Positions 9,063 to 37,494 of a stretch of 46,763 nucleotides of DNA are shown in pieces. The stretch is taken from the NCBI GenBank assembly GCA_023129535.1, contig JAGMBW010000162.1, positions 1 through 46,763 of the forward strand, given 5' to 3'. The stretch comes from Desulfobacterales bacterium. Lineage in GTDB: Bacteria; Desulfobacterota; Desulfobacteria; Desulfobacterales; C00003060. A program made the position numbers and the translations under genes. Below the pieces are notes generated by a model. That model worked only from the letters and a program-made list of their open reading frames with translations. It was not told the origin of the DNA and made no database searches. How positions within the stretch are numbered: the first letter of the stretch is position 1; every line of letters begins with the position of its first letter.

Positions 9063-9620
9063 ATGTCAAGGGTCAAGATATTCCTGTGTTGCTTGATATG
9101 CCTGATGGTTGCCGGGATTGGGTTAGTAGGTTATCAACGTCTCAGGGAAGAGCCCAGGGCATTCCTTTCGGTTCTGCCAGAAAAGAAAGAGGTGAGCCTA
9201 AATCATATTCATCACGTCGCAACTCGAGACGGAGTTAAGGAATGGACGCTTGATGCTGGGTCAGCACAATATGAGAAGGGAGACGGCAAGGCCGTGTTCA
9301 AAGATATTGTTGCCACTTTTTTTCTGGACGATAGTAAGACTATACAACTTAACGGTGCTGAAGCGGTTCTTTTGTCCAATACCAGCGATATGGAAATCTG
9401 GGGTGATGTGGTAGTGCAAAGTGGTCGATACGAGTTCAATACCGAAAACCTACGTTACGAACACAAAACCCGTACAATTTCCACGGAGACATCGATTGTA
9501 ATCAAAGGGAATGGCATGGAGATCAGGGGCGACAGTATGATCTTTAACCTTCAAACAGAGCAGGTTGTAGTGTGTGGCAGAGTGAAGGCTGTCCTTGAAG
9601 GATTGAAGATTGAAGATTGA
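9063..9620 (+). CDS. lptC: LPS export ABC transporter periplasmic protein LptC
   Basis: A 185-residue bitopic inner-membrane protein that links the LptB2FG extractor to the LptA bridge. One N-terminal membrane segment (about 6-24) is followed by an OstA-like beta-jellyroll region. Sequence identity in this family is low; the call rests on size, topology and position directly before lptA and lptB. The last residues and the stop codon lie in a 7-bp array (GGATTGAAGATTGAAG), so the C-terminus is repeat-derived. Confidence 0.88.
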   Translation: MSRVKIFLCCLICLMVAGIGLVGYQRLREEPRAFLSVLPEKKEVSLNHIHHVATRDGVKEWTLDAGSAQYEKGDGKAVFKDIVATFFLDDSKTIQLNGAEAVLLSNTSDMEIWGDVVVQSGRYEFNTENLRYEHKTRTISTETSIVIKGNGMEIRGDSMIFNLQTEQVVVCGRVKAVLEGLKIED

Positions 9621-9765
9621 AGATTGAAGATTGAAGATTGATAATTGTTTGAAAGGTGTCAGGTGTCAAAACCCTGAACACTGTACTCTTCTCAAGGCGT
9701 AAGCCGCAAACCTGAACACTGAAAAAGGTCTTCAATCGACAATCTTCAATCTTCAATCGACAATT
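9601..9765. repeat. Inverted pair of 7-bp arrays between lptC and lptA
   Basis: The left array (9601-9645) is (ATTGAAG)n and the right array (9729-9765) is (TCTTCAA/TCGACAA)n, its near reverse complement. The loop of about 83 nt holds two CCTGAACACTG copies flanking the 19-mer TCAAGGCGTAAGCCGCAAA (9692-9710), which recurs at 34912-34930. Confidence 0.85.
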
Positions 9766-11068: not shown

Positions 11069-11120
11069 TTTTGGATTTTGGGTTTTTCAATCGACAATCT
11101 TCAATCGACAATCTTCAATT
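11069..11120. repeat. 7-bp/14-bp array between lptB and rpoN
   Basis: Units TTGGATTT, then TCAATCGACAATCT twice (14 bp, two heptamers), ending 8 nt before the rpoN ATG. The array occupies the place of an rpoN ribosome site; none is seen. Confidence 0.75.
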
Positions 11121-13131: not shown

Positions 13132-13149
13132 AGCAGGAGCTCGTTTCTT

Positions 13150-13296
13150 GAGTTTCTTGTGTCTGTTGTGTCTATTGTGTCTGTCGTGTTTTGGCTCATT
13201 TAACTCAATAAACCCAACAAACTCAATAGACTCAATAGACCCAATAGACCCAATAAACCCAATAGACCCAATAGACCCAATAAACCCAATAGACGC
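13150..13296. repeat. Paired 9-bp arrays before ptsN (T2'-spacer-T1')
   Basis: The left array is TTGTGTCTG-type units and the right array is ten units of CCCAATAGA/CCCAATAAA. This is the reverse-complement arrangement of 4706-4805. Read in the ptsN frame the right array would encode an Ile-Asn-Pro/Ile-Asp-Pro repeat peptide, which is not believed to be translated. Confidence 0.85.
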
Positions 13297-19466: not shown

Positions 19467-20453
19467 GTGCCTGCAAATCTACCCCCGGAGTATTTCGAGG
19501 TTGAAAAGCGATATCGCGAGGCCAAGGCCCCAGCGGAAAGAATTGAGGCCTTGGAGCAGATGCTTGCCGTCATCCCCAAGCACAAGGGGACGGACAAGCT
19601 CAGGGCAGATCTTAGACGTCGCGTCTCCAAGTTGAAGTCTAAGCAACAAGCAAAAAAGGCAACAAGTAGGGGAGATGTAGGATACAGGATCGACCGGGAA
19701 GGGGCTGGGCAGATTGTGCTTATCGGTGCTCCCAACGTAGGCAAATCCGCTTTAGTGGCGGCGCTTACCAATGCTGCTCCCGAAGTGTCTAATTTTCCCT
19801 ATACCACCCGGATACCGACCCCTGGTATGATGCGCTTTGAAGACATCCAGATTCAACTGATTGACACGCCACCAATTATCCGTGAGGATGTGGAGCCGTG
19901 GTTTCTCGACATGGTTCGCAGGGCCGATGTGGTTCTGTTGGTTGTGGATGTTACCGCAGACCCGGTTCAAGAACTCGAAGACACGGTCGTCCTGCTTGAA
20001 GAGAAACGCATTGCACCCTTGCGCTTGGCTCAGTTGTATGAAGGAAGGCAGGGTTGGACTTTCAGGCCTGCGCTGGTGGTGGCAAACAAGAACGACAACG
20101 CCTCTGCCCAAGAAAACTTTCAGATCTTCAAAGACCTGTTGGAAGATGACTGGTCAATGGTGGCGGTTTCCGCAACCACAGGGCGTAACCTCGCAGTACT
20201 GAAACAAATGCTGTTTGAACGGCTTCAGATCATCCGGGTCTATACCAAGGTGAGAGGTAAGGCTCTGGAGCGCAACGCTCCGTTTGTGCTCAAAAAAGGG
20301 GCTACAGTGGAAGATCTTGCTGGCAAGATCCACAAGGATTTCGTAGACAAGTTCCGATTTGCCAAGGTATGGGGCAATGAGGTTTATGACGGGCAAATGA
20401 TCCAGAGGGACTACGTGCTCAAGGATGGAGACATAGTCGAGTTGCACGTGTGA
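19467..20453 (+). CDS. OBG/DRG-type GTPase with C-terminal TGS domain
   Basis: 328 residues. A helical N-terminal region (1-75) precedes a GTPase domain with G1 GAPNVGKS, G3 DTPP (in LIDTPPI, the usual Gly replaced by Pro), G4 NKND and SATTG. A C-terminal TGS domain (about 255-328) ends in YVLKDGDIVELHV. It most resembles the DRG branch known from archaea and eukaryotes but also present in some deltaproteobacteria, and is probably ribosome- or RNA-associated. The start is GTG at 19467, preceded by GGGGGAGG. Confidence 0.87.
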   Translation: MPANLPPEYFEVEKRYREAKAPAERIEALEQMLAVIPKHKGTDKLRADLRRRVSKLKSKQQAKKATSRGDVGYRIDREGAGQIVLIGAPNVGKSALVAALTNAAPEVSNFPYTTRIPTPGMMRFEDIQIQLIDTPPIIREDVEPWFLDMVRRADVVLLVVDVTADPVQELEDTVVLLEEKRIAPLRLAQLYEGRQGWTFRPALVVANKNDNASAQENFQIFKDLLEDDWSMVAVSATTGRNLAVLKQMLFERLQIIRVYTKVRGKALERNAPFVLKKGATVEDLAGKIHKDFVDKFRFAKVWGNEVYDGQMIQRDYVLKDGDIVELHV

Positions 20454-20455
20454 CA

Positions 20456-20528
20456 ATTCTTGATTGTTGATTGTCGATTGATGATTGTCGATTGACGATT
20501 GGCGATTGATGATTGTAGATTTTCATGA
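20456..20528 (+). repeat. 7-bp array, left arm flanking the S23-like gene
   Basis: About ten units of the form ATTGNNG (ATTGTTG, ATTGTCG, ATTGATG, ATTGACG, ATTGGCG and so on), starting right after the GTPase stop codon. It is the reverse complement in type of the array at 20895-20931. Confidence 0.9.
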
Positions 20529-20545
20529 TTTTTGGAGGGTAAGAA

Positions 20546-21787
20546 TTGGATGCTGAGAAATTGAAGCAGAGAACAAAAGGATTCGCACATAGATGCGTCA
20601 AGCTGGCTATTGCACTGCCAAGGACCGCATTGGGAAATCACACAAAACAACAGCTAATACGATGTGCGACATCTGTCGCAGCAAATTATCGGGCCGCTCT
20701 TTTGGCTCAAACAAAGGCGGTCTTTATTTCAAAAATAAGTATCGTTATAGAAGAAGCAGATGAATCTGAGTTTTGGCTGGAATTTATTATGGATGAAAAA
20801 GTAATGGAAAGGAAGAGGCTTTTACCTCTTTTGAACGAAGCCCATGAACTATCATCAATTTTCATCACAACAAGAAAGACAGCACAGAGAAAAAAATCAA
20901 TCAACAATCAACAATCAACAATCATCAATCGGAAAAAGACCGATTTTCCCGTGATCCCTCCAGAGAGAGAGGACGACCTTCATAACCTGGATTTTGCCGA
21001 TTCCGCGGACCTGGTGCTATTTATGGCAGGCAACCAATTCATGGTCATGCACGAACTGATTCGTGTGTTTCAAGAAGAACACCCCGACGTAAAGAGAATC
21101 TTCTATGAAACACTTCCACCCGGCCTGGAACTAAAACAGATCCTGGCGGGTGGCGCTCTTTTTCGGGATAGGGTTATAGACGTGGTTCCCGATATCTACG
21201 CATCTGTCACTGAGAAGGCCATGGAGCGCCTTGAAAAGGATGGGATCATTACAAAGGGGGACTATTTTCTCTATCTTCATAACCGTGTTGTGTTGATGGT
21301 GCCAGAAGGCAACCCTGCACAGATTGTCTCTGTTGAAGATTTGCGGCGAGATGAAGTACGCGTCTCACAGCCGAATCCTCAATATGAAGACATTGCCTAT
21401 TATATTATCGACATGTATAGGGAGGCAGGTGGGGAGGACCTTGTGCATCGCATTATGGAGGAAAAAAGGGCCGAAGGGACAACCTTCCTGACGGTTGTAC
21501 ACCACAGGGAGACGCCACTGAGCATCGTAAAGAAGACGGTCGATGTGGGGCCGGTCTGGGCCACGGAGGTTATACATGCGCGGCAAAGCAATCTTTCGGT
21601 GGATATGGTTGAACCCGGAGAGGATCTGGATCAGAGGGACAGGATAAACTACTATATTTGCAGATTAAAGAATGCTCCCCATCCTGAAAACGCCGAAAAG
21701 TTCCTTGACTTCATAAGATCACCCCGCTCTCAGGGGATCTATGAAGCTCACGGCTTTGTGCCTCATTTTGAGAGTTCTGCCGAATAA
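20546..21787 (+). CDS. Chimeric ORF: S23/four-helix-bundle protein fused to a substrate-binding protein
   Basis: 413 residues made of two unrelated parts. Residues 1-116 are a complete S23/four-helix-bundle protein (LIRCATSVAANYRAALLAQTKAVFISKISI, EADESEFWLEF, NEAHELSSIFITTRKTA), the family found in 23S rRNA intervening sequences and related to Avd of diversity-generating retroelements. Residues 117-129 (KSINNQQSTIIN) are encoded by a 7-bp array. Residues from about 136 on form a ModA-like periplasmic-binding-protein fold (DLVLFMAGNQF..., GVVP-like VVPDIYASV, C-terminal FLDFIRSPRSQGIYEAHGF) without a signal peptide. The start is TTG at 20546 with GGAGGG 6 nt upstream. A GTG at 20951 could be the original start of the binding-protein gene. 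No transporter genes adjoin. The fusion is read directly; its cause is inferred. Confidence 0.8.
   Translation: MDAEKLKQRTKGFAHRCVKLAIALPRTALGNHTKQQLIRCATSVAANYRAALLAQTKAVFISKISIVIEEADESEFWLEFIMDEKVMERKRLLPLLNEAHELSSIFITTRKTAQRKKSINNQQSTIINRKKTDFPVIPPEREDDLHNLDFADSADLVLFMAGNQFMVMHELIRVFQEEHPDVKRIFYETLPPGLELKQILAGGALFRDRVIDVVPDIYASVTEKAMERLEKDGIITKGDYFLYLHNRVVLMVPEGNPAQIVSVEDLRRDEVRVSQPNPQYEDIAYYIIDMYREAGGEDLVHRIMEEKRAEGTTFLTVVHHRETPLSIVKKTVDVGPVWATEVIHARQSNLSVDMVEPGEDLDQRDRINYYICRLKNAPHPENAEKFLDFIRSPRSQGIYEAHGFVPHFESSAE
20895..20931 (+). repeat. 7-bp array, right arm, inside the chimeric ORF
   Basis: Units AATCAAT, CAACAAT x3, CATCAAT: the reverse complement of ATTGTTG/ATTGATG units of the left arm (20456-20528). 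The two arms and the S23 gene between them span about 475 bp. Confidence 0.9.
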
Positions 21788-23338: not shown

Positions 23339-24460
23339 TCACTTTAGCTCACTTTCAATGAGGATGCTGGTGATGGCCGTGCGTGGCAGGCCATAACTCT
23401 TGCTGGCCCAGACGGCCTCGTCCACATCCATGCTCATGAAGACCCCTTTGGAGCCAGCAGCATAGACCACATCCATGCCATCAGCTATGTGTGCTATCTC
23501 AATATCGAACACTCTCAGCCCATTCGGAAGACCCCCTGTCGTCTTTGACCAATCCTGTCCACTATTGGTTGATCTATACACACCATCTGATGTGCCAAGA
23601 TAGATCCTTTCAGGCCGTCTGAGGTTGACGGCAATCGTATAGATCAGGGCCCCATCAGGAAGCCCCTTGTGCCATCCCGTCCACGTGAGCCCCGCATCCA
23701 GGCTCCTATAAAGACACGGGATATCCTCAAAACGCCCTCTTTTCCCCTCGTATGCCCCTGAGCCTGCAAACACGGTTTTCCCCTCTGGATCAGCCGCCAT
23801 GGAGAGAATGTTCTTGTTCTTGATCCCTCTTGAGGCAGGCACCCATTGCTTTGAGGATTCTCCCCACTTGAACAGACCTTTCACAGTGCCGGCATACAGG
23901 ACCTTGCCAGAGGCAAAAAGCACATTTACGTCACGAAAGGTGAGGCCCTCATTCCATGGTTGCCAGGCCCCAAGTGCACCCGGAGCCTTGGAGACACCAC
24001 CTCCGTTCATCCCCACCAGCACCTCTGCCCTGGCTTTCAGATCGGACGCGGTACCTCGAAAGGCAACAGATCTCACGTTTTTATCCTTGAATCGCCCCAC
24101 CCTCTCCAGGTGACCTGTTTGCAGGTCCAATGTAAAGAGACCGCCCCCCGTGGTTGTAACGTAGAGTACATCCCTGTCATGCAAGCCCTGGTACAGCCGT
24201 TTGTAATAGGCATAGATCGCCTTTTGGTCCGCGTCTATCGCAAACCAACTGGTCCCGCCGTTGTCACTCTTGTAAATCCCCTTGCCATATGAGGCTGCAT
24301 AGCAGGTGATATTATAGTCCTTTGGTGCGGAAAGCTCCTTGTTGCAGCCTGCCGCAAAAGTCAAAAGCATCAGGGCCAACAAATAAACAGGGCCTGCTCG
24401 CTTGCCACCATAGGATTGCGGATTGCGGATTGCGGATTGCGGATTTAGGTTATGTATCAT
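23339..24460 (-). CDS. Beta-propeller lipoprotein (BNR/YCF48-like repeats)
   Basis: 373 residues. A lipoprotein signal peptide (YLLALMLLTFAAGC, lipobox AAGC) leads to repeated propeller blades with Asp-box-like turns: KSDNGGTSWF, YRSLDAGLTW, YRSTNSGQDW. Such proteins act as extracytoplasmic assembly or binding factors; no catalytic residues are recognisable. The start at 24460 gives MIHNLNPQSAIRNPQS before the hydrophobic core, and those residues are encoded by a 7-bp array, so the n-region is repeat-derived. Co-oriented with wzz downstream and the small lipoprotein upstream. Confidence 0.8.
   Translation of the reverse strand: MIHNLNPQSAIRNPQSYGGKRAGPVYLLALMLLTFAAGCNKELSAPKDYNITCYAASYGKGIYKSDNGGTSWFAIDADQKAIYAYYKRLYQGLHDRDVLYVTTTGGGLFTLDLQTGHLERVGRFKDKNVRSVAFRGTASDLKARAEVLVGMNGGGVSKAPGALGAWQPWNEGLTFRDVNVLFASGKVLYAGTVKGLFKWGESSKQWVPASRGIKNKNILSMAADPEGKTVFAGSGAYEGKRGRFEDIPCLYRSLDAGLTWTGWHKGLPDGALIYTIAVNLRRPERIYLGTSDGVYRSTNSGQDWSKTTGGLPNGLRVFDIEIAHIADGMDVVYAAGSKGVFMSMDVDEAVWASKSYGLPRTAITSILIESELK
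24413..24447. repeat. 7-bp array in the lipoprotein signal-peptide region
   Basis: Four identical GGATTGC units followed by GGATTTA. It is the same unit as in pyrC (2804-2845). Confidence 0.9.
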
Positions 24461-28037: not shown

Positions 28038-28203
28038 ATCTATCGTCATTCGTCATTCGTTATTCGTTATTCGTTATTCGTTATTCGAAAGTCGTTGTCC
28101 TCTTCGTGTATAAGGTTCTCCGTTTCTTGTCCTTACTGCCTACTACTTACTGTTTACTGGTCACCGCCTGCTGCGTACTCCTTACTGCTTACTTCTTACT
28201 CTT
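28038..28203. repeat. Two 7-bp arrays at the 5' end of the YjbH-like gene
   Basis: The first array (28038-28088) is CATTCGT/TATTCGT units. The second (about 28131-28203) is ten units related to CTGCTTA/CTACTTA/CTTCTTA. The second lies inside the signal-peptide coding region. Confidence 0.85.
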
Positions 28204-37167: not shown

Positions 37168-37494
37168 AATATATTTTATACTAACAGGTTCGACAAAAGT
37201 CAACAGAACCGGTTCAGGCAGCAATTCTCTGTGAATTTGTAATGCCCTGAGATTGCGTCGCTTCGCTCGCAATGACAGAACCATTTTCGCGATGTCATTG
37301 CGAGGAGCGATAGCAACGAAGCAATCTCATGTTGATTTTGACCGAGAATTGCTGGGCTTCAGGGGTTTATTGGGTTTATTGAGTCTGTTGAGTTCGTGAA
37401 AGAAACAGTGTAAACACAACAGACACAACGAACACAACAAACACAACAAACACAACAGACACAACAAACAGTGTAAACCCAACAAACACAATTG
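37168..37494. repeat. Spacer with TCATTGCGAG palindromes and paired 9-bp arrays
   Basis: Two inverted copies of the widespread TCATTGCGAGGAGCGA-type repeat (about 37250-37275 and 37293-37330) come first. Then T1 units TTTATTGGG/TTTATTGAG (37362-37395) and T2 units ACACAACAA/ACACAACAG (about 37415-37488) run up to the ABC-transporter start codon. Confidence 0.8.

Follow-up and report, generated by a model that had tools for sequence, protein, structure and literature searches.

An S23 gene between inverted heptamer arrays in a Desulfobacterales genome: a candidate mobile hairpin outside ribosomal RNA

The window analyzed here, a stretch of 46,763 nucleotides from the genome of a Desulfobacterales bacterium (contig JAGMBW010000162.1), contains an S23 coding region framed by two inverted arrays of heptameric repeats and located between a GTPase gene and the coding region of a substrate-binding protein (Table 1). 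The left array begins 3 bases after the GTPase stop at 20453, and the S23 part, which has a basic C-terminal tail (KTAQRKKS), opens with a TTG start at 20546 that is preceded by GGAGG. A single ORF of 413 aa (20546-21787) encompasses the S23 part and, in frame with no intervening stop, the binding protein, so that the right array is read as INNQQSTIIN. Elsewhere, the window contains further arrays and hairpins whose units belong to other families, some of them 9-mers, at 13143-13291, 37363-37470, 1512-1576, 24413-24445 and 28043-28087.

Table 1. Features of the S23 locus and of ATTGNNN-family repeats in the window
Feature	Coordinates	Strand	Basis and remarks
TGS-domain GTPase gene	19467..20453	+	upstream neighbour; profile match, ortholog comparison
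Left (5') array, ATTGNNN heptamers, ~8 units	20456..20515	+	two detectors; inverted match to right array
S23 coding part (S23 / 23S-rRNA-IVP / four-helix-bundle)	20546..20899	+	Pfam domain 20564-20860
Right (3') array, CAATNNN heptamers, ~4.7 units	20898..20930	+	two detectors
SBP_bac_11 / ModA-like binding-protein part, fused	20933..21787	+	domain 21011-21757; TAA stop
S23-free hairpin, ATTGNNN family, between lptC and lptA	9601..9758	.	arms 9601-9641 and 9733-9758
Lone array, ATTGNNN family (TTCAATCGACAATC), without partner	11086..11119	.	

The S23 part meets the cut-offs of both family profiles, TIGR02436 (5e-17, 62 bits, cut-off 24) and PF05635 (2e-10, 41 bits, cut-off 33.8), and has relatives in the PDB (2gsc, which is XCC0516 of Xanthomonas, and 2rld); the binding-protein part matches PF13531 (6e-35), and no Pfam domains besides this fused one were found in the remainder of the window ORF. 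The inverted-repeat alignment of the two arms scores 48, compared to a 95% level of 22 at random spots of the genome, 1.6% of which reach 30, and the predicted fold of the sense RNA, with the arms paired, beats 100 of 100 shuffles (z -3.3). The sequence-only reading of this stretch had claimed an S23-type gene enclosed by inverted heptamer arrays that form a long stem, with a frame running through the right array into a substrate-binding protein. The protein identity and the fusion held, as did the inverted arrangement (two detectors, inverted match, and RNA fold), with the units now defined as ATTGNNN and CAATNNN.

This architecture is not peculiar to the window. Inverted arrays flank, at the threshold used, 16 of the 18 genes with PF05635 matches in the same genome, compared to 7 of 205 other small ORFs (Fisher 3e-17), and the units vary from gene to gene, including GTCAGTG, GTTGCAG, GCGCANA, TATTCGT, GTAACCTG, AATGATA, and others. 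Across all sources, namely, this genome, its relatives, 80 GTDB loci from many phyla and 13 plasmid loci, such arrays are present at 117 of 139 S23 loci, with an arm period of 7 in 104, 8 in 7 and 9 in 3, although the sample is biased in that 80 of the 139 belong to the window's own S23 clade. The elements are spread over phyla at 58-87% amino acid identity; no rRNA was detected near or around S23 in the loci scanned, and a search for S23 in phages yielded no match. Between co-oriented genes, 89 elements are in sense and 2 in antisense orientation (with ORFs from a simple finder), a bias that could also be expected from selection for S23 expression and that resembles the bias of ordinary operon genes. 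The S23 proteins are under purifying selection, as indicated by dN/dS values of ~0.04-0.26 (0.16 between the two fused copies). Several plasmid elements (L257, L259, L256, L249) lie between genes of apparent operons, encoding DUF1156 and Swt1-HEPN, drmD (DISARM) and MmeI, and at one locus between the two ribonucleotide reductase genes. Two near-identical elements (L011 and L012, 0.95 identity) both adjoin tRNA genes, and on contig C200 (locus L019), a stretch of ~4.4 kb holds three S23 elements, each with a different unit, among numerous interleaved GTCCAAN hairpins.

Comparison of orthologous sites exposed presence and absence, decay, and replacement. Between the GTPase and binding-protein genes, one relative (G021) has no insert, the empty site lying at the GTPase stop codon; two (G003 and G018) carry an intact, unfused S23 gene with its own stop between ATTGNNN arrays; and one (G007) has a decayed S23. 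In all four, the binding protein has its own start, and among the genus orthologs, the fusion is found only in the window genome and G017. Because the orthologs in the genus show empty, separately stopped, and decayed states, the fusion is a derived accident of the lineage, common to one relative, rather than part of the element design. The second site, between hemB and a radical SAM gene, is home to another ATTGNNN element (L014). Within the same genus, this site is empty in G018, G011, G016, G014 and G004, contains intact elements in G000 and G017, a broken one in G020, a hairpin with the S23 gene nearly fully deleted, leaving an apparent remnant, in G021, and leftover units in G009 and G001, and is occupied by arrays of other unit families in G005, G007, G008, G019 and G012; here, hemB, the gene upstream, can draw its stop codon from the array. 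Thus, the element is present or absent at orthologous sites and has spread between lineages, as is required of a mobile element, and the S23 gene and its arrays behave as a single unit in their horizontal movement. Empty and filled sites are highly diverged at the junctions, and a target-site duplication could not be defined.

The sequence-only reading proposed a mobile stem-loop, located outside rRNA, with an S23 gene as its cargo, and this proposal is supported by the flanks elsewhere and the orthologous empty sites. Two of the checks that it suggested came out in its favor: S23 genes in the genome and its relatives are nearly always flanked by inverted arrays, and a GTPase/binding-protein locus without the insert was found in G021. 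Neither of the observations that it named as refuting, a fusion conserved without repeats or S23 genes elsewhere lacking flanks, was made, and G017, the sole other fusion copy, retains its repeats.

The repeat unit is private to the S23 subfamily. Similarity between S23 proteins predicts similarity between units in the same strand sense (Spearman 0.67, Mantel 0/999). Within single genomes, where base composition is common to both members of a pair, the unit is shared by all 14 S23 pairs with at least 60% amino acid identity and by ~4% of the pairs below 60%; the rank correlation over all within-genome pairs is weak (0.08), and therefore the relation between protein and unit is one of threshold. 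It remains possible that the sharing of units stems from mere physical linkage, not from binding. In the unit-register test, in-register complementarity of the arms did not exceed that of shuffled units, so exact stem maintenance was rejected, and the long stem had to be corrected to one that is not specially complementary in register; hence, the conserved feature of the arrays is the unit and not exact pairing.

Arrays without S23 are far from rare. A sample of 814 kb of the window's genome, taken by place, holds 249 strict arrays, and Markov-shuffled sequence holds none. S23-free arrays with a length of 28 bp or more number 197. Of these, 60% have a unit matching that of a resident S23 element, compared to 12% (maximum, 23%) in the control with permuted units, and the share is 77% when S23 elements of related genomes are included. 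All but one of 43 S23-free hairpins have the motif strand on the 5' arm (42:1; the exception joins two neighbouring hairpins), as do S23 elements; at one locus (L350), hairpins are nested inside one another. Thus, S23-free hairpins and arrays with the units and polarity of S23 elements litter the genome, and some are deletion products, including at least one deletion derivative, in support of the earlier suggestion that the arrays elsewhere are empty versions. The hairpin between lptC and lptA in the window is likely to be such a remnant, of an ATTGNNN-family element. G005, G017, G020 and G015 hold many GTCAGTG arrays but no detected cognate S23, and therefore arrays outlive, or do not need, their cognate; strict cognate dependence across genomes was accordingly rejected, given that these arrays occur where no close S23 was found.

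On balance, we interpret the window element as a mobile hairpin of ~475 bp, consisting of one S23 gene between inverted arrays of 7-nt units and inserted sense-wise between two co-transcribed genes, right after the upstream stop. The closest known counterparts are the S23-encoding intervening sequences (IVS) of 23S rRNA in Coxiella and Leptospira, in which the same gene family occupies the loop of an inverted-repeat stem, within ~430 nt. The window element shares the defining S23 ORF in such a loop but fails the second requirement, location inside an rRNA gene, being flanked by the GTPase and binding-protein genes. In Coxiella, tandem GACAGAT heptamers precede the S23 ORF and differ in copy number between strains (PMC4990558), the only case of heptamers beside S23 in the open-access literature searched. 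The elements described here differ from the rRNA IVS in that they lie between protein genes, have stems built of tandem arrays specific to the S23 subfamily, and occur in many copies per genome together with S23-free derivatives. Purifying selection acts on their S23 gene; the Coxiella ORF, by contrast, has been reported to be decaying.

The arrays also resemble the heptanucleotide STRRs of cyanobacteria, Xanthomonas, Nostoc and Beggiatoaceae, which are likewise intergenic heptamer arrays, and qualify as such, being tandem 7-nt units dispersed over the genome. The GGGAATC heptamers of Xanthomonas and Nostoc prefer about four units, and two Xanthomonas genomes contain 70 and 75 inverted pairs (PMC4692102), and the Beggiatoaceae heptamer is TAACTGA (PMC4679880); neither paper mentions S23. 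Here, S23 genes were found inside heptamer arrays on cyanobacterial and other plasmids, a likeness of kind. REPIN/RAYT systems consist of repetitive hairpins with a dedicated transposase. They share with the present elements the many short hairpins, fixed arm polarity and less frequent gene copies that have the motif on both sides, but differ in that the window element holds no transposase (no RAYT (Y1) transposase, PF01797, was found in it), its gene encodes a four-helix bundle without enzymatic function, and its motif occurs in tandem. Diversity-generating retroelements include Avd, a pentameric four-helix bundle similar to S23 that functions with nucleic acid; unlike those retroelements, the window genome has no reverse transcriptase.

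The reading that we favor, with moderate confidence, is an S23 IVS-like mobile hairpin outside rRNA in which S23 probably recognizes its own repeat, where recognition, RNase III cleavage and transposition chemistry are all inferred. An S23 pentamer would bind its repeat as single-stranded RNA or DNA, an inference without binding data, perhaps with about one unit per subunit, as suggested by arrays holding 4-5 units (median, ~4.4); the PDB entries 2gsc and 2rld contain five chains each. In the transcript, the arms would pair and be cut by RNase III, by analogy with the 23S rRNA IVS of Coxiella (PMC4990558), and under this proposal, insertion would therefore do little harm; excision by RNase III without ligation is a hallmark of the rRNA IVS. 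S23 would confer the specificity when hairpins are copied or moved, and host enzymes would perform the chemistry. The window copy subsequently lost its stop and was fused to the next gene. The loop holds S23 only, with no transposase in the element, and PF00078 reverse transcriptase has 0 matches in the window's genome and none in the S23-rich G035, G037 and G023, so that retrotransposition by a resident enzyme is rejected and the mover is not identified. Targeting of hairpin tips is not claimed; most arms end sharply. Three loci (L082, L091, L282) show unique complementary sequence outside the arrays, extending in part into host start or stop codons.

One rival explanation, possible but unlikely, is that arrays are landing pads, such that heptamer hairpins spread alone and S23 genes home into those with a recognized unit. 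In its favor, S23-free hairpins are far more numerous than S23 genes, the hemB site holds arrays of different units depending on the species, and GTCAGTG arrays are present without cognate S23. Against it, array-free empty sites exist at both loci studied, the hemB hairpin of G021 retains an apparent S23 remnant, which implies loss, and the GTPase site shows no hairpin precursor. Cis-regulation, whereby S23 would bind its own transcript at the arrays to regulate itself or to process the RNA, and nothing beyond ordinary horizontal transfer and recombination would spread the cassette, is consistent with the sense orientation within transcription units, the basic tail, purifying selection, and the subfamily-specific unit, but is unlikely, accounting neither for the hundreds of S23-free arrays that share units and polarity with S23 elements nor for the repeated insertion after the hemB stop codon. 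Replication slippage that builds intergenic heptamer arrays in which S23 genes lie by chance would suit an array-rich genome (249 arrays in 814 kb) but is all but excluded by inverted pairing specific to S23 genes, units that follow S23 protein subfamily and strand, and the fixed polarity (42:1).

The favored mobile-hairpin reading can be extended to a bolder one, which we regard as tentative and would not, at present, bet on: that S23 proteins are the specificity factors of an unrecognized, multi-phylum class of mobile hairpins. As parts of this same joint conjecture, each S23 subfamily would read a private word of 7 to 9 nt, repeated four to five times and wound round the pentamer ring, and would spread S23-free hairpins with that word, and the cyanobacterial, Xanthomonas and Beggiatoaceae heptamer repeats, together with the rRNA IVS, would be footprints of one class.

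Separately, 13 of 26 GxxExxY (PDDEXK_3; PF13366) genes of relatives (L218-L247) are enclosed by inverted arrays whose units, 8 to 10 nt long (CACACAGAC, CACGAAAGT, CACAAAGAC), are again apparently subclade-specific. Long inverted repeats also flank a DUF559-like gene (L025:6866-7213; GGGGGGATTT) and a GIY-YIG-like nuclease gene (L076:4545-4838; CATTGCGAGCGGAGCGAAGCAATC), both named by eye; these nuclease genes might possibly represent further kinds of cargo.

For decades, S23 genes have chiefly been seen as passengers of rRNA IVS, and to our knowledge, no maker of bacterial heptamer repeats has been identified. The link between S23 and heptamers offers a candidate protein for the repeats and a candidate ligand for S23, and yields natural pairs of protein and word that are open to direct testing. 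The architecture of the S23 flanks points to widespread, little-recognized mobile DNA that, if the reading is true, would account for much of the variation in intergenic DNA, for breaks in assemblies, and for the occasional fusion of genes like the one in the window.
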